Shown: positions 33,995-37,685 of the stretch, one piece after another
Position numbering within the stretch: position 1 is the stretch's first letter
How the letters are laid out: the number at the start of each line of letters is the position of its first letter
Source of the DNA: Acetobacter fallax
GTDB taxonomy: Bacteria; Pseudomonadota; Alphaproteobacteria; Acetobacterales; Acetobacteraceae
Direction of reading: 5' to 3'
Assembly (NCBI RefSeq): GCF_011516735.1
Contig: NZ_WOSX01000005.1
Span: 62,001-126,000, forward strand
DNA length: 64,000 nt
Translations under genes and position numbers: made by a program
Notes under the pieces: generated by a model
Database searches by the model: none
Told to the model about the DNA's origin: nothing
What the model saw: only the letters and a program-made list of their open reading frames with translations

Positions 33995-36900
33995 TTATGC
34001 TGAGCGGCTGAAAGGCCCCATCGCCTCCAGCGCGGCTTCCGGCCGGCCGAGGGCGCCCGCGAGGGTTCTGCTGACCTCGCCTTCGCTGAATTTCCCCCGG
34101 ATCAGACGGGAGCCGGCCTGCCCCAGAGTGTCGACCATGTCCGGGTCCTGATGAAGGCGCACGATCTGTGCCGCGATCTCCCCTGCATCTTTCTGCACCA
34201 GGTCGCTCAGGTCTGCGGGCAGATCAATGCCTTCGGCGGCCATGGGGCTCATGACGCAGGGCAGTCCGGCGGCGAAGGTTTCCAGAACTTTGCCTTTGAT
34301 CCCGGCGCCGAACCGCAATGGCGCGACACCCAGGCGGACGTTTTCGAAGAGATCGTCCCGCAGATTTTCGATTCTGCCGGCAATGTGCACCCCGCCGCAT
34401 GATGCGTCTGCTTCACGGGCAAGATCTTCGATGTCCGCGTCTGCGTCGCTTCCAGCCAGTATGCACCGGATCTCCGGGGCCTGCTGCCAGACACGGGGCA
34501 TGACTTCGCTGACCAGCCATTCGGCGGCATCGCGGTTCGGGCCGTGACTGTAATTACCGAGGAAAGCCACGCCATGACGTTCTGACGCGGATTTTCTGAC
34601 GGGCTGCGGTGCGATGTCCCATGGCACGACGTGGACGTTCAGTGCGGGCATAAGCCGCCGGAGTTCTGAGGCTTCGAAACCGGAATGGGTTATAACGACA
34701 TCGGACATGAGCGCCGCTGTGACTTCGAGCGTGCGGGTCCGGCCGGCCTCGTAGGCCAGATCCGTGTTGCCTTCGATCCCGGCCTGGCGCGCCATGCGGA
34801 GATAGTGAAGATCAGCCACGCTGTAGATCACGCGGCTGCCGCCCATGTAGCGTCTGACCAGCCCGGCATAGGATGAGGCGATGCTGACACGATGGAGATA
34901 GACGACATCGAATGTGCCGGCCTGACGTCTCAGCACATCTTCGGGCGACTGGTAGAAAGGCGCGCAGGCCACTGACACGCCTTCGGCTTCCATGGCGGCG
35001 ATCAGATCCTGCGGAATGTTTGCCGCGGGTGAGACGAATGTCACCTGGTAACCAAGGCGTCCGAGCGTACGGATATGAGAGTAAATCGCCTGCGATCCGG
35101 CGTCACATCCCACACGCGGGAACTGTTCGTCGATGACAAGGGCACGGCGCAGTTTCGGTATGTCTGCGGCGGCCCGGCCCGCAAGACGGCGGGACCGTTC
35201 CAGTTCGGCTCTCTCTTCGCGCCGGGTATCATGATCGGCTTTTTGCTGGCTGATGCGTTCTGCCTGACGGGTCACGAAGGCGAGTGCCCTGCGGCGCTCC
35301 TCGTCGGTTTCCAGTCCTGCAACGGCTCTTTCGACGAAAGCTTCCATGTCGTCATTGAAGTCGCCTGCTACGGAAAGATGCTTTGGCGATCCGTGAAGAT
35401 GATGATCCGTGCCGGCGTGACGCACTTCGATGACATGGGGTGTGGCAGGATCAAGCAGCGTGCCGAAAGTCAGCTCAAACGCGGCCCAGCCATTCCCGAT
35501 ACCGGCTGAGGCGAGGTCCGGACGCTGGCTGGTTGCGCAGATCGTTGTGATATAATGTCCATCCACGAATACATCGACCTGCATTCTCTCCCATGGTCTG
35601 TCTTCATTCCATGCCCAGCCATTGAGCCTGTTCCGGCTGGCGAAATCCAGCCAGCCGTGGAATCTGCCGGTTTTTTCTGGCCGGTCACCGGCTTCCGGAT
35701 TTTCCGTCGTGACCGGCCGATGCGGGGATGGCTCCTGATGATGCGAGGGCTCTGTGCCTGCGGCCTGCGCGCAGAGTGCGGCGAGATCGACATAGCCCGC
35801 GTGGACCGGGACAGTCCCTGCTCCGTGTGGCCGGGCACGTTCTGCGAGCTGTCGCCAGATTTTTGCGAGATGTTCTCCGCCTTCGACGCGGGGGGCGCAG
35901 TAGATTGCTTCTTCGCGTTTTGCATCGGGGTAGCGGGCGTAATAATCGGCGGCGTTCTGAAACATGCCGCGCGATCCGTCTTCCACGTAGGTTTCGGAGG
36001 GGGCGCCTTCTGCCAGGAGCAGATCGTGGCTTTCCAGTTCGAGGTGGATATAGGCCACTTCGCCGGGCTCTTCATCCTGCACGATGCTGATGCCGTTGAT
36101 CAGCGCGCTGGCGGGAACGAGCACGCCATCGACATACATGGCGTGAAGGGGTGACACGCGGAGATCGCGTTGCGGGATGTTGTCGGCGATGGCACCGGCT
36201 TTGATGGTGACCGGAAGCAGTTTTTTGTTTTTCCCCACGAATTCGGGGGCGTAGCTGCGGCGACCGATCCAGCGGACGGGGCGTAGTTCACCGGACGCTG
36301 TGCGGACGAGATCGCCGATCTCCAGGGTCTCGATCGCGGCTTCTCCGTCCTGAACCGCGATGCGTGTTCCCGGGCAGTAGCAGGCGATGTAGCTCAGTTG
36401 CATGCCCTTATCGCCGGAACTGTCCGTGGTGACTGTAGAGGACGAGAAATCGGCGGCGTCAAACCCTGGGACTGGAGATGCCAGGCTGATAGTGTCAACG
36501 GTTTTACCGGAACTGTCCAGAATCGTGATTGCGGAGTCAGAATAAGACACTGAGTACTGGGTCGGATCGAGGTCGATCTGAAGGGTTGCACCCTTTACCA
36601 GAGAGAGATTCGTCAGCGTGTCGTCGAGGCCACCGATTTCCAGTGTGCCGCCATTTTCAACGGTAATGCCGTTGATGGTCGAATTTACGCCGTCGAGATC
36701 CAGAATATCAACGTAACCACTGCTGCTGATGGTCACGTTACTGACGCTGGCACCGGCTTCCAGCGTCGCGGAGCCACCGGACCCGACAACGATGCCGGAG
36801 AGTGTTCCGCCGGACTGAACGTCTTCCAGGCCACCGGAACCAATGGTGACATCATAGGAACTGCCACTACCCTGGACCTGCTGCTGGCCGCCGGACAGAA

Positions 36901-37513
36901 TCGTGGTGTTGCTGGCGTAACCGCCGCTTGTGACGGCCTGGTTGACACTGAATCCCGTTCCGCTGAGCGTGGTGTCAACAGCCGAGCCACCGGCGTTGAT
37001 GGTCTGAAGCGCGTTGCCGAGGACAGTGGCCCCAGACGCGATTCCGCCCGCTGCTACAGTCTGTAATGCCTGCGTGTTGCCGGTGCCTGAGGACAGCATT
37101 GCCCCCGTATCTGTTCCATAGACATTCTCCGACGCCCCGGCATCAATGATCATGTTTCTGGCGGTGCCCTGCGACCAAACAACCGTCGAGGTTCCTGATG
37201 TCATGGTGACATCGCTGATGGTGGCCCCGTTTTCAACAGCGAACCCACCGGACCCCGTGCTGCCGCCGGAAACCGTGCCGCCGGAAACCGTGCCTTCGGT
37301 TCCCGGACTGGCGTTACCTGTAATGCCAACAAAAAGAGAGCCGCCGGATATGAGCGTGATGCCAGATACAACGCCACCGGATGAGACATAGGCGGTGCCT
37401 CCGGAATTAACCGTGAGGCCACTCACGACAGCTGTGTCGATGATTTTGAGCGTATCGCCGCTACTAACGGTCTGGTTAGTCTGCGTGCCCGTGTTCACCG
37501 TCGTTGTTGTCAT
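33995..37513 (-). CDS. Adhesin-type repeat / Hint domain / glycosyltransferase fusion protein
   Basis: The protein has 1172 residues in one uninterrupted frame; GGAGG precedes ATG 37513. Residues ~15-310: ~20-residue Gly/Ser/Thr strand-loop-strand repeats (SGGTAYVSSGGVVSGITLIS, SGGYASNTTILSGGQQQVQG) as in AIDA-I-like passengers. Residues ~376-520: Hint domain, nucleophile C378 in ACYCPGTRIAV, ETLEIGDLVRT, RPVRWIGRR, and H457 in RVSPLHAMYVDG. Residues ~617-715: small beta domain (GWLDFASRNRLNGWAWNEDR, RPDLASAGIGNG) known beside bacterial glycosyltransferases. ~720-780: charged coiled coil. ~788-1160: GT-B glycosyltransferase, GT4 type (ALVIDEQFPRVGCDAGSQAI, VAFLGNYSHGPNRDAAEWL, VAPLRFGAGIKGKVLETFAA, GLPCV). 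There is no Sec signal. Repeats and Hint together are known in Acetobacteraceae; joining a glycosyltransferase is unusual. Roles are inferred. Confidence 0.88.
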   Translation of the reverse strand: MTTTTVNTGTQTNQTVSSGDTLKIIDTAVVSGLTVNSGGTAYVSSGGVVSGITLISGGSLFVGITGNASPGTEGTVSGGTVSGGSTGSGGFAVENGATISDVTMTSGTSTVVWSQGTARNMIIDAGASENVYGTDTGAMLSSGTGNTQALQTVAAGGIASGATVLGNALQTINAGGSAVDTTLSGTGFSVNQAVTSGGYASNTTILSGGQQQVQGSGSSYDVTIGSGGLEDVQSGGTLSGIVVGSGGSATLEAGASVSNVTISSSGYVDILDLDGVNSTINGITVENGGTLEIGGLDDTLTNLSLVKGATLQIDLDPTQYSVSYSDSAITILDSSGKTVDTISLASPVPGFDAADFSSSTVTTDSSGDKGMQLSYIACYCPGTRIAVQDGEAAIETLEIGDLVRTASGELRPVRWIGRRSYAPEFVGKNKKLLPVTIKAGAIADNIPQRDLRVSPLHAMYVDGVLVPASALINGISIVQDEEPGEVAYIHLELESHDLLLAEGAPSETYVEDGSRGMFQNAADYYARYPDAKREEAIYCAPRVEGGEHLAKIWRQLAERARPHGAGTVPVHAGYVDLAALCAQAAGTEPSHHQEPSPHRPVTTENPEAGDRPEKTGRFHGWLDFASRNRLNGWAWNEDRPWERMQVDVFVDGHYITTICATSQRPDLASAGIGNGWAAFELTFGTLLDPATPHVIEVRHAGTDHHLHGSPKHLSVAGDFNDDMEAFVERAVAGLETDEERRRALAFVTRQAERISQQKADHDTRREERAELERSRRLAGRAAADIPKLRRALVIDEQFPRVGCDAGSQAIYSHIRTLGRLGYQVTFVSPAANIPQDLIAAMEAEGVSVACAPFYQSPEDVLRRQAGTFDVVYLHRVSIASSYAGLVRRYMGGSRVIYSVADLHYLRMARQAGIEGNTDLAYEAGRTRTLEVTAALMSDVVITHSGFEASELRRLMPALNVHVVPWDIAPQPVRKSASERHGVAFLGNYSHGPNRDAAEWLVSEVMPRVWQQAPEIRCILAGSDADADIEDLAREADASCGGVHIAGRIENLRDDLFENVRLGVAPLRFGAGIKGKVLETFAAGLPCVMSPMAAEGIDLPADLSDLVQKDAGEIAAQIVRLHQDPDMVDTLGQAGSRLIRGKFSEGEVSRTLAGALGRPEAALEAMGPFSRSA

Positions 37514-37685
37514 GAGTGCCTCCGAAAATCACGCGAAGCCTTTTTTTGGCTAACGGTGCTGTGAAATGTTTCCGGGTCTCATTCTTCCGACAAATCGCTA
37601 ATTTTTCGGATACAATGCTTTCTGGCTGTTCATAATTGGAGTTCAGGGCCTGTCGTCAGACCGTTTCGAAGCTCTGTCCGAACGC

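Follow-up and report, generated by a model that had tools for sequence, protein, structure and literature searches.

The window analyzed here, a stretch of 64,000 nucleotides from Acetobacter fallax (contig NZ_WOSX01000005.1, positions 62,001 to 126,000), encodes on its minus strand a protein of 1172 residues in which AIDA-type repeats are followed by a Hint domain, an immunoglobulin (Ig)-like domain, and a glycosyltransferase (GT) domain of the GT4 type. Our best explanation, held tentatively and given somewhat less than an even chance, is that in this protein a cargo of AIDA-type repeats is attached to a maturation module of exchangeable use (Hint, Ig-like, GT4), which the Acetobacteraceae employ for many surface or extracellular cargo proteins. 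Comparison of the loci shows that the module recurs, that its cargo is exchanged, that the Hint residues are conserved, that selection acts on all parts, and that Hint-bearing chains share an Ala/Gly end. In the proposed mechanism, the peptide bond that follows residue 377 would be converted to a thioester at C378, and N-terminal cleavage only, without splicing, would free the cargo. The GT4 part, whether fused to the Hint part or held to it as a separate partner, would add a sugar to the cargo or precursor or recognize a glycan, O-heptosylation of the repeats would be carried out by separate enzymes of the Aah/TibC type, and a C-terminal tag on the leftover Hint-GT piece would either cause removal of this piece or direct the precursor to an exporter.

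Domain organization of the window protein

The open reading frame (ORF) extends over positions 33995 to 37513, stop codon included, and is complete and continuous over 1172 codons, as stated in the initial annotation, which had not given its strand; the plus-strand reading of the same interval contains many stops. A GGAGG motif at positions 37519 to 37523, 5 nucleotides upstream of the ATG, is a likely ribosome-binding site. Profile searches with Pfam and NCBIfam and structure models bore out the domains previously assigned and their order; all coordinates below refer to the minus strand. The N-terminal part (approximately residues 15 to 310; 36584 to 37471) is composed of strand-loop-strand repeats, of which about 14 had been counted. 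Self-matching gave a peak at lag 19 (0.235 versus a mean of 0.115 for lags 10 to 44), consistent with about 15 units with a period near 19; AIDA (PF16168) matched over its cut-off (E = 7.3e-8; 32.8 bits versus 27), and TIGR04415, the NCBIfam model of O-heptosylation-target repeats, matched five stretches just under its cut-off (26.1 bits versus 30). The best solved-structure match of the protein, TibA chain 4q1q (E = 6.7e-18), is to these repeats. Hint_2 (PF13403) covers residues 378 to 511 (35981 to 36382) with E = 4.8e-43 and 147.5 bits (cut-off, 28.4), followed by an extension that is conserved in the alignment and carries a CAPR motif (residues 512 to 560; 35834 to 35980).

The region initially described as a small beta domain (residues 613 to 720; 35354 to 35677), here termed BETA, was modeled as an Ig/FN3-like sandwich with a predicted local distance difference test (pLDDT) value of 92. 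A known fold family for this domain was considered and rejected, since none was clear by Foldseek, Z score, or profile: Pfam gave no match up to E = 1, a profile search yielded only three hits (E = 0.23 to 0.26), and Foldseek returned no match at E ≤0.001, the best Z score of 7.7 reflecting a common sandwich, which does not imply a novel fold. The larger model (pLDDT 76.7; predicted template modeling [pTM] score 0.48) holds both the helical stretch that had been claimed as a coiled coil (residues 721 to 785; 35159 to 35353) and the GT-B fold of the GT4 domain (residues 786 to 1155; 34049 to 35158). The GT part has its best structural match in 6kih (Z 29.8, root mean square deviation 3.8, 353 residues), and its assignment as a GT4-type enzyme is upheld by a match of residues 981 to 1123 to Glyco_trans_1_4 (PF13692) over the cut-off (E = 6.6e-18; 65.8 bits versus 27). 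The nearest NCBIfam model, TIGR03087, reached 83.3 bits, far below its equivalog cut-off of 316.65. Inspection of the N-terminus by eye, without a predictor, revealed no Sec signal, as the initial annotation had noted, and the Pfam matches up to E = 1 included neither an autotransporter translocation barrel, the C-terminus being occupied by the GT4 domain, nor Hog or SRR families. Counts of promoters and terminators were near those of shuffled sequence (3 versus 1.0, standard deviation 1.1, and 4 versus 3.7, respectively) and were not used.

The probability that the fusion is an assembly or frame artefact is negligible. The same fusion is present in nine further genomes fetched from the genus, three of them (G033, G013, and G018) assembled in 1 to 5 contigs, and the ratio of nonsynonymous to synonymous differences (pN/pS) was below 1 in every segment of the gene in five comparisons; the fusion is therefore beyond chance. 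With this recurrence, and with constraint on both sides of the junction, the sequencing join envisaged in the initial annotation no longer stands.

Fused and split forms of the Hint/BETA/GT4 module

The link between Hint and glycosyltransferase is real, as fused or neighboring genes recur across loci. The A. fallax genome contains seven Hint_2 genes, five of which are linked to a BETA-GT part, either in a single chain (the window gene and the genes on C16, 2639 amino acids, and C4, 1749 amino acids) or as a pair of neighboring genes separated by 35 bp (C51) or 117 bp (C23); the Hint genes on C10 and C14 have no GT within the fetched stretch. A wider set of 140 loci, collected starting from the GT, comprised the best 80 named among the matches listed, 32 family stretches, and 28 genus stretches, the stretches being picked mostly as best-scoring matches and not at random. 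An ORF with BETA and GT (GT >250 bits) was present at 87 of these loci, 45 named loci had a GT without BETA, and at the remaining 8 the GT was below 250 bits or cut off. Removal of four repeats left 83 distinct BETA-GT loci, with Hint (>100 bits) in the same ORF at 40 and in another ORF within 2 kb at 24. In 23 of the 24 split loci both genes lie on the same strand and in one they are convergent; the Hint gene is located downstream at L150, and the gap amounts to 1.8 kb at L130. Fused and split forms thus both exist, and the case raised in the initial annotation, that relatives always encode the two parts separately, does not occur. Where the two genes are split, a BETA domain is usually found both at the end of the Hint gene and at the start of the GT gene, for which reason the fusions are seen to join at the BETA position. 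As single observations, the Hint-BETA and BETA-GT genes of L132 (10998 to 14393) are convergent, about 25 bp apart, and not in tandem, and L057 (4444 to 9592) contains a tandem pair of Hint-BETA-GT copies, the GT match of the first being cut short.

Hint and GT distances of 68 linked pairs correlated with r = 0.73, a value as high as this occurring in none of 2000 permutations (species history not removed), and in a tree of the 68 linked GTs the fused and split forms were partly mixed, with six changes, at least two of them forced by well-supported branches. A second sample was built from the Hint side, taking the first-listed Hint_2 match per genome in the 54 best-scoring genomes among the matches listed. 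Here, 9 of the 54 genes had a GT in the same or a neighboring ORF; five of the GT-less stretches extend less than 1 kb beyond the Hint gene, so that a partner could be cut off. Set against the Hint linkage of the BETA-GT loci, this proportion makes GT linkage a minority trait of Hint_2 that is nevertheless common for this GT subfamily. Of the 150 genomes in the family sample, which takes Acetobacteraceae in the wide sense, 119 contained Hint_2; in the class-wide sample, besides A. fallax and one other genome of the family, 3 of 142 genomes matched it, one at 17 places and the other two with scores below the cut-off. Among 72,556 plasmid records, 284 matched some part of the protein, and none covered 80% of it.

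A conserved partner operon was rejected as a candidate: the recurrent neighbor cluster of eight loci consists of assorted ABC ATPases with 25 to 34% identity, close copies being confined to L064, L147, and L148, and the other recurrent neighbors looked at represent synteny of orthologues. A dedicated exporter was rejected as well, a HlyD relative being found among 115 Hint loci only at the C10 locus of A. fallax and four others having only weak ABC hits. At the C10 locus (L012, 5911 to 14606), the neighbors of the GT-less Hint gene include a large regulator-like gene, a HlyD-like adaptor, and a C39-type ABC exporter with a truncated-looking end.

Diversity of the cargo

The 68 cargo parts fell into 34 groups (BLAST at 100 bits), several of which share repeat types, so that not all are unrelated. 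Cargo that could be named by Pfam or NCBIfam included AIDA repeats, an ExeM/NucH-type extracellular nuclease, a subtilase (over the cut-off), and cell-wall-repeat-like stretches (under the cut-off). The nuclease type, found in the C4 paralogue of A. fallax (L010) and in Gluconobacter (L045), was over the cut-off in Pfam and reached 137 and 150 bits, respectively, with NF033681, under the cut-off of 300. Because the same unit carries other cargo types, a function restricted to AIDA repeats fails to explain the module, and comparison of these chains shows the cargo to be exchangeable across the Hint/Ig-like/GT4 unit. The ExeM/NucH-type cargo with a Hint-BETA-BETA-GT4 unit is seen at L010 (6942 to 12191) and at L045 to L049, L046 to L049 being assigned by similarity.

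Conservation and predicted chemistry of the Hint domain

An alignment was made from Hint matches of at least 100 bits and at least about 125 residues, four sequences with BETA but no GT not being counted. The two residues highlighted in the initial annotation, C378 (codon 36380 to 36382) and H457 (36143 to 36145), proved to be invariant, together with H496 (36026 to 36028), in all 119 Hint sequences (70 GT-linked, including the window protein, and 49 other). Residue 377 is proline in 51 of the 70 GT-linked domains and alanine in the window protein. The His-Asn pair of inteins is replaced by Glu507-Thr/Ser508 (Glu-Thr in the window protein), the positions being equated by eye in an alignment to the motifs; the C-terminal His-Asn that marks inteins and A-type bacterial intein-like (BIL) domains is thus missing from the window Hint. 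Re-ligation of the chain, one of the two outcomes initially proposed, is unlikely because of this absence, and the residues present fit N-terminal cleavage without splicing. In the cited part of the source, such cleavage is described for B-type BIL domains, which sit in variable bacterial proteins (PMC7765530). A sequence search for solved relatives of the Hint domain gave one chance-level hit (E = 0.65). Between the window gene and its nearest orthologue, the ratio of nonsynonymous to synonymous substitution rates (omega) was approximately 0.11 for Hint, 0.16 for the GT, and 0.27 for the repeats, these and the omega values below being rough, since synonymous sites are near saturation.

The C-terminus of Hint-bearing chains

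Hint-bearing ORFs were surveyed for their C-termini at loci L008 to L013, L044 to L064, L124 to L223, and L246 to L274. ORFs were classified by domain content as fused, Hint with BETA, Hint only, BETA-GT without Hint, other GT4, and neighbor ORFs, the latter being called mechanically at a length of at least 250 amino acids, so that some may not be genes. The last residue was alanine or glycine in 30 of 41 fused chains, 23 of 24 chains with Hint and BETA, and 40 of 53 with Hint only, as opposed to 14 of 45 BETA-GT proteins without Hint, 10 of 45 other GT4s, and 81 of 320 neighbor ORFs. The stricter end A[AG] was present in 17, 16, and 21 chains of the three Hint-bearing classes versus 2, 0, and 15 of the three controls, respectively. 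A single-linkage redundancy control was of no use for the fused and GT classes, which collapsed into 3 and 5 clusters, respectively, and greedy representatives at 60% were used instead; among these, the Ala/Gly end was found in 19/27 fused chains, 16/17 chains with Hint and BETA, and 32/42 chains with Hint only versus 10/30 BETA-GT and 7/32 other GT4 proteins. For the fused chains compared with BETA-GT, this corresponds to p = 0.005, or to p = 0.051 if only A[AG] is counted. By eye, the end was also recognized in 10 of 14 Hint proteins of one genome from outside the family and in 5 of 6 of another genome of the family, and six Hint proteins fetched after the pattern had been found all possessed it.

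In fusions the Ala/Gly end follows the GT, and in split pairs it is located on the Hint chain, not on the GT chain; the end therefore belongs to the cargo-Hint chain, wherever this chain stops. In the window protein its place is the C-terminal tail (33998 to 34048), which ends in Ser-Ala. These observations suggest a C-terminal tag, either a ClpXP-like AA/AG degron or an export signal. If it is a degron, cutting would take place in the cytoplasm and the used Hint-GT piece would be removed; if it is an export tag, the GT would travel along with the cargo in the fusions. Among known tags, the 'AG' end of TacA serves as a ClpXP tag, and the DPNEQVNAA tag of CtrA is its C-terminus. In the cited portion of the respective sources, DPNEQVNAA for CtrA, given there as an N-terminus, and GAAPVKARG for PdeA are tabulated (PMC8138137), and ClpXP is described as recognizing nonpolar C-terminal residues (PMC8973945).

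Loss of conserved glycosyltransferase residues under purifying selection

The window GT keeps all conserved positions that were checked, including R875, D901, N993, and K1073. In contrast, 5 of the 10 analyzed orthologues that belong to the clade of the window gene (the ten not including G028 and G035) have lost conserved motif residues; in this sub-clade (L156, L159, L161, L162, and L164), the residues lost are D795, G806, S807, R875, D901, H903, P992, N993, and K1073. Across 61 GT4s without a Hint link, each of these nine positions is retained in 53 to 61 sequences, and the 63 remaining linked GTs retain D901 and N993 in 63 cases and R875 and K1073 in 62. This conservation suggests that the lost positions are putative active-site residues. 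Among L156, L161, and L162, omega was 0.05 to 0.10 for the GT, 0.05 to 0.07 for Hint, and 0.14 to 0.21 for the repeats; in the wider pairs L159-L162 and L159-L164, the GT values were 0.18 and 0.25. The five orthologues thus likely carry a pseudo-glycosyltransferase under purifying selection, fused to an intact Hint domain. A separate observation concerns L054 (7437 to 9974; Tanticharoenia; identical to L131), where the cargo and most of the Hint score are lost, the Hint domain is degenerate, and the GT motif is intact.

Such retention of the fold after motif loss, together with the Ala/Gly end that follows the GT in fusions, could mean that the GT domain serves to bind a glycan or as a structural element, with catalysis no longer required, and that the whole chain goes to the cell surface with the GT fold as its anchor. 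We consider this unlikely, because the window protein and most relatives keep the motif, BETA-GT proteins without Hint mostly lack the Ala/Gly end (present in 14 of 45), and no export signal was found. The boldest alternative takes Hedgehog as its model: a glycan or glycolipid bound to the Ig-like/GT-B part would attack the Hint thioester, with the GT as recognition region in the role that the sterol-recognition region has in Hedgehog, so that the cargo becomes anchored at its C-terminus to a sugar polymer. It would accommodate a Hint domain with N-terminal chemistry residues and no terminal Asn, a cargo that varies while Hint and GT stay, and the strong selection on the GT fold (omega of 0.05 to 0.10, with 0.18 and 0.25 in the wider pairs) after motif loss. 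Yet most sampled Hint_2 genes (45 of 54) have no such GT, the GT is a separate protein in split pairs, and retention of the motif in 62 to 63 of the other 63 linked GTs suggests sugar transfer and not only binding, and it is thus decidedly unlikely. An extended version, in which the cargo thioester at C378 would be passed to a glycan or glycolipid made or held by the Ig-like/GT-B part, giving a surface protein with a sugar anchor at its C-terminus, and the spent Hint-GT piece would be cleared via the Ala/Gly tag, appears quite improbable; if it were true, the module, its cargo being exchangeable, would serve acetic acid bacteria and related organisms as a general device for coupling proteins to glycans.

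The order of long repeat filament, Hint, and enzyme is also that of polymorphic toxins; in a toxin-like protein, Hint would free the C-terminal GT as an effector. This reading is very improbable here, as the GT has its nearest named relatives among GT4s of the polysaccharide type, the GT also occurs as a separate neighboring gene, and its motif is lost in orthologues. PT-HINT (PF07591), moreover, is not among the Pfam matches of the window protein up to E = 1, and one paralogue matches it weakly (E = 0.00038), under the cut-off.

Separate heptosyltransferases and possible glycosylation of the repeats

Two heptosyltransferases of the Aah/TibC type (TIGR04414; 644.5 and 611.9 bits) are encoded in the A. 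fallax genome, at G000:C16:64493-65638 and G000:C3:28953-30083. The match on C16 starts 235 bp past the end of a paralogous AIDA-Hint-GT4 fusion (L009, 4339 to 12258), and the gene on C3 has no Hint ORF within the 19.5 kb fetched. In other genomes, TIGR04414 genes were located 360 bp upstream, in divergent orientation, of the G013 fusion (L175) and approximately 1.1 kb downstream of the G116 fusion (L128). The candidate role of the fused GT itself as an enzyme of this type was rejected, there being no TIGR04414 match up to E = 1. Of the 37 genomes sampled from the genus, 21 contain a GT-Hint unit, defined as a match under E = 1e-100, and all 21 have TIGR04414 over the cut-off, while 3 have TIGR04414 only and 13 neither (Fisher p = 1.6e-7, uncorrected for species history; the matches in G009 and G020 being broken or partial). 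Of the 27 family genomes that supplied BETA-GT loci, 13 have no TIGR04414 over the cut-off, and the same holds for 6 of the 18 whose fetched locus shows a clear Hint link. A crude motif count classed 7 of 14 cargo parts as repeat-rich where the genome has a TIGR04414 enzyme versus 0 of 7 where it has none (p = 0.03). A rule that TIGR04414 stands beside Hint was rejected: a Hint ORF was present in only 3 (L234, L238, and L241) of 20 stretches surrounding a TIGR04414 gene, taken one per genome, so that most of these enzymes stand apart from Hint genes. At L238 and L241, heptosyltransferase genes are situated near GT-less Hint genes, with an AIDA-like ORF between them in L241.

In the TibA/TibC system, as described in the cited part of the source, the repeats are heptosylated in trans by a separate enzyme (PMC4358343). 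The simplest reading is that here, too, enzymes acting in trans attach heptose to the AIDA repeats, and that the fused GT4 serves something that other cargo also needs; it could add further sugar to the heptose or act on different residues of the cargo. The initial annotation had instead proposed that the fused GT may add sugars to the Ser/Thr-rich repeats, in its own chain or in sister molecules, before Hint releases the adhesin. The physical fusion or gene neighborhood and the conserved GT positions kept in the window protein speak for this proposal, as does the presence of TIGR04414 in all 21 genus genomes with the unit, which would be expected if the GT extends the first heptose. It is nevertheless weakened by the existence of separate heptosyltransferases, by cargo without detected AIDA repeats on the same unit, by the 6 of 18 family genomes in which a Hint-linked unit occurs without TIGR04414 over the cut-off, and by the motif loss in half of the ten orthologues, and we regard it as unlikely.

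Evaluation of the proposed maturation module and its significance

Several results weigh against the interpretation of the Hint, Ig-like, and GT4 domains as a maturation module for diverse cargo. Clear Hint domains are missing nearby at 18 of the 83 BETA-GT loci, and one more has only a degenerate Hint. Conversely, no such GT was seen in the vicinity of 45 of the 54 Hint_2 genes in the sample, from which it follows that Hint does not need this GT. Since 5 of 10 orthologues have lost GT motif residues, the fused domain need not always transfer sugar either. Only 2 of 20 cargo representatives scanned gave a match over the cut-off, and 12 gave none at a Pfam E value of 0.1. In the window protein itself, the tail ends in SA and not in A[AG], and the full-module model has a low pTM score (0.48).

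In the open-licence literature, no paper contained both 'Hint domain' and 'Acetobacteraceae', no title among the papers listed pointed to a Hint-glycosyltransferase fusion, and no described function was found for the Hint_2 domains of these bacteria. One Hint_2 subfamily is now tied to a specific enzyme. The natural splits, the losses of GT motif residues in some orthologues and of the cargo and most of Hint at another locus, and the exchange of cargo make the action of Hint on its cargo testable in harmless bacteria, and the Ala/Gly end offers a second handle on the export or turnover of Hint proteins.

Comparison with known systems

With AIDA-I/Aah and TibA/TibC, the window protein shares the repeat type (AIDA over the cut-off, TibA as best solved match, TIGR04415 just under the cut-off), and TIGR04414 enzymes are present in the same genome. 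It differs from these adhesins in that neither an autotransporter barrel was matched nor a signal peptide visible, the fused GT belongs to GT4 and not to TIGR04414, and a Hint domain is present. As in B-type BIL domains, which according to the cited part of the source also occur in variable host proteins (PMC7765530), the Hint domain has N-terminal chemistry residues and lacks the C-terminal intein motif; unlike them, it is a Pfam Hint_2 domain, its cleavage is predicted, and it is fused to an Ig-like domain and a GT4. The order of an N-side cargo, a Hint domain, and a C-terminal part that could recognize an adduct resembles Hog proteins, in whose processing, as far as the cited part of the source describes it, Hedgehog is passed to cholesterol (PMC2362128), whereas the C-terminal part of the window protein is an Ig-like domain with a GT-B enzyme fold. 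Among glycosyltransferases, the TIGR03087 GT4s (stp1, PEP-CTERM/XrtA) provide the model nearest to the window GT, which remains far from their cut-off (83.3 versus 316.65 bits) and is fused to or located beside a Hint protein. Finally, the cargo of L010 and L045 resembles ExeM/NucH nucleases in matching NF033681, albeit under the cut-off, and is set apart from them by the Hint-BETA-BETA-GT4 unit carried on its C-terminal side.

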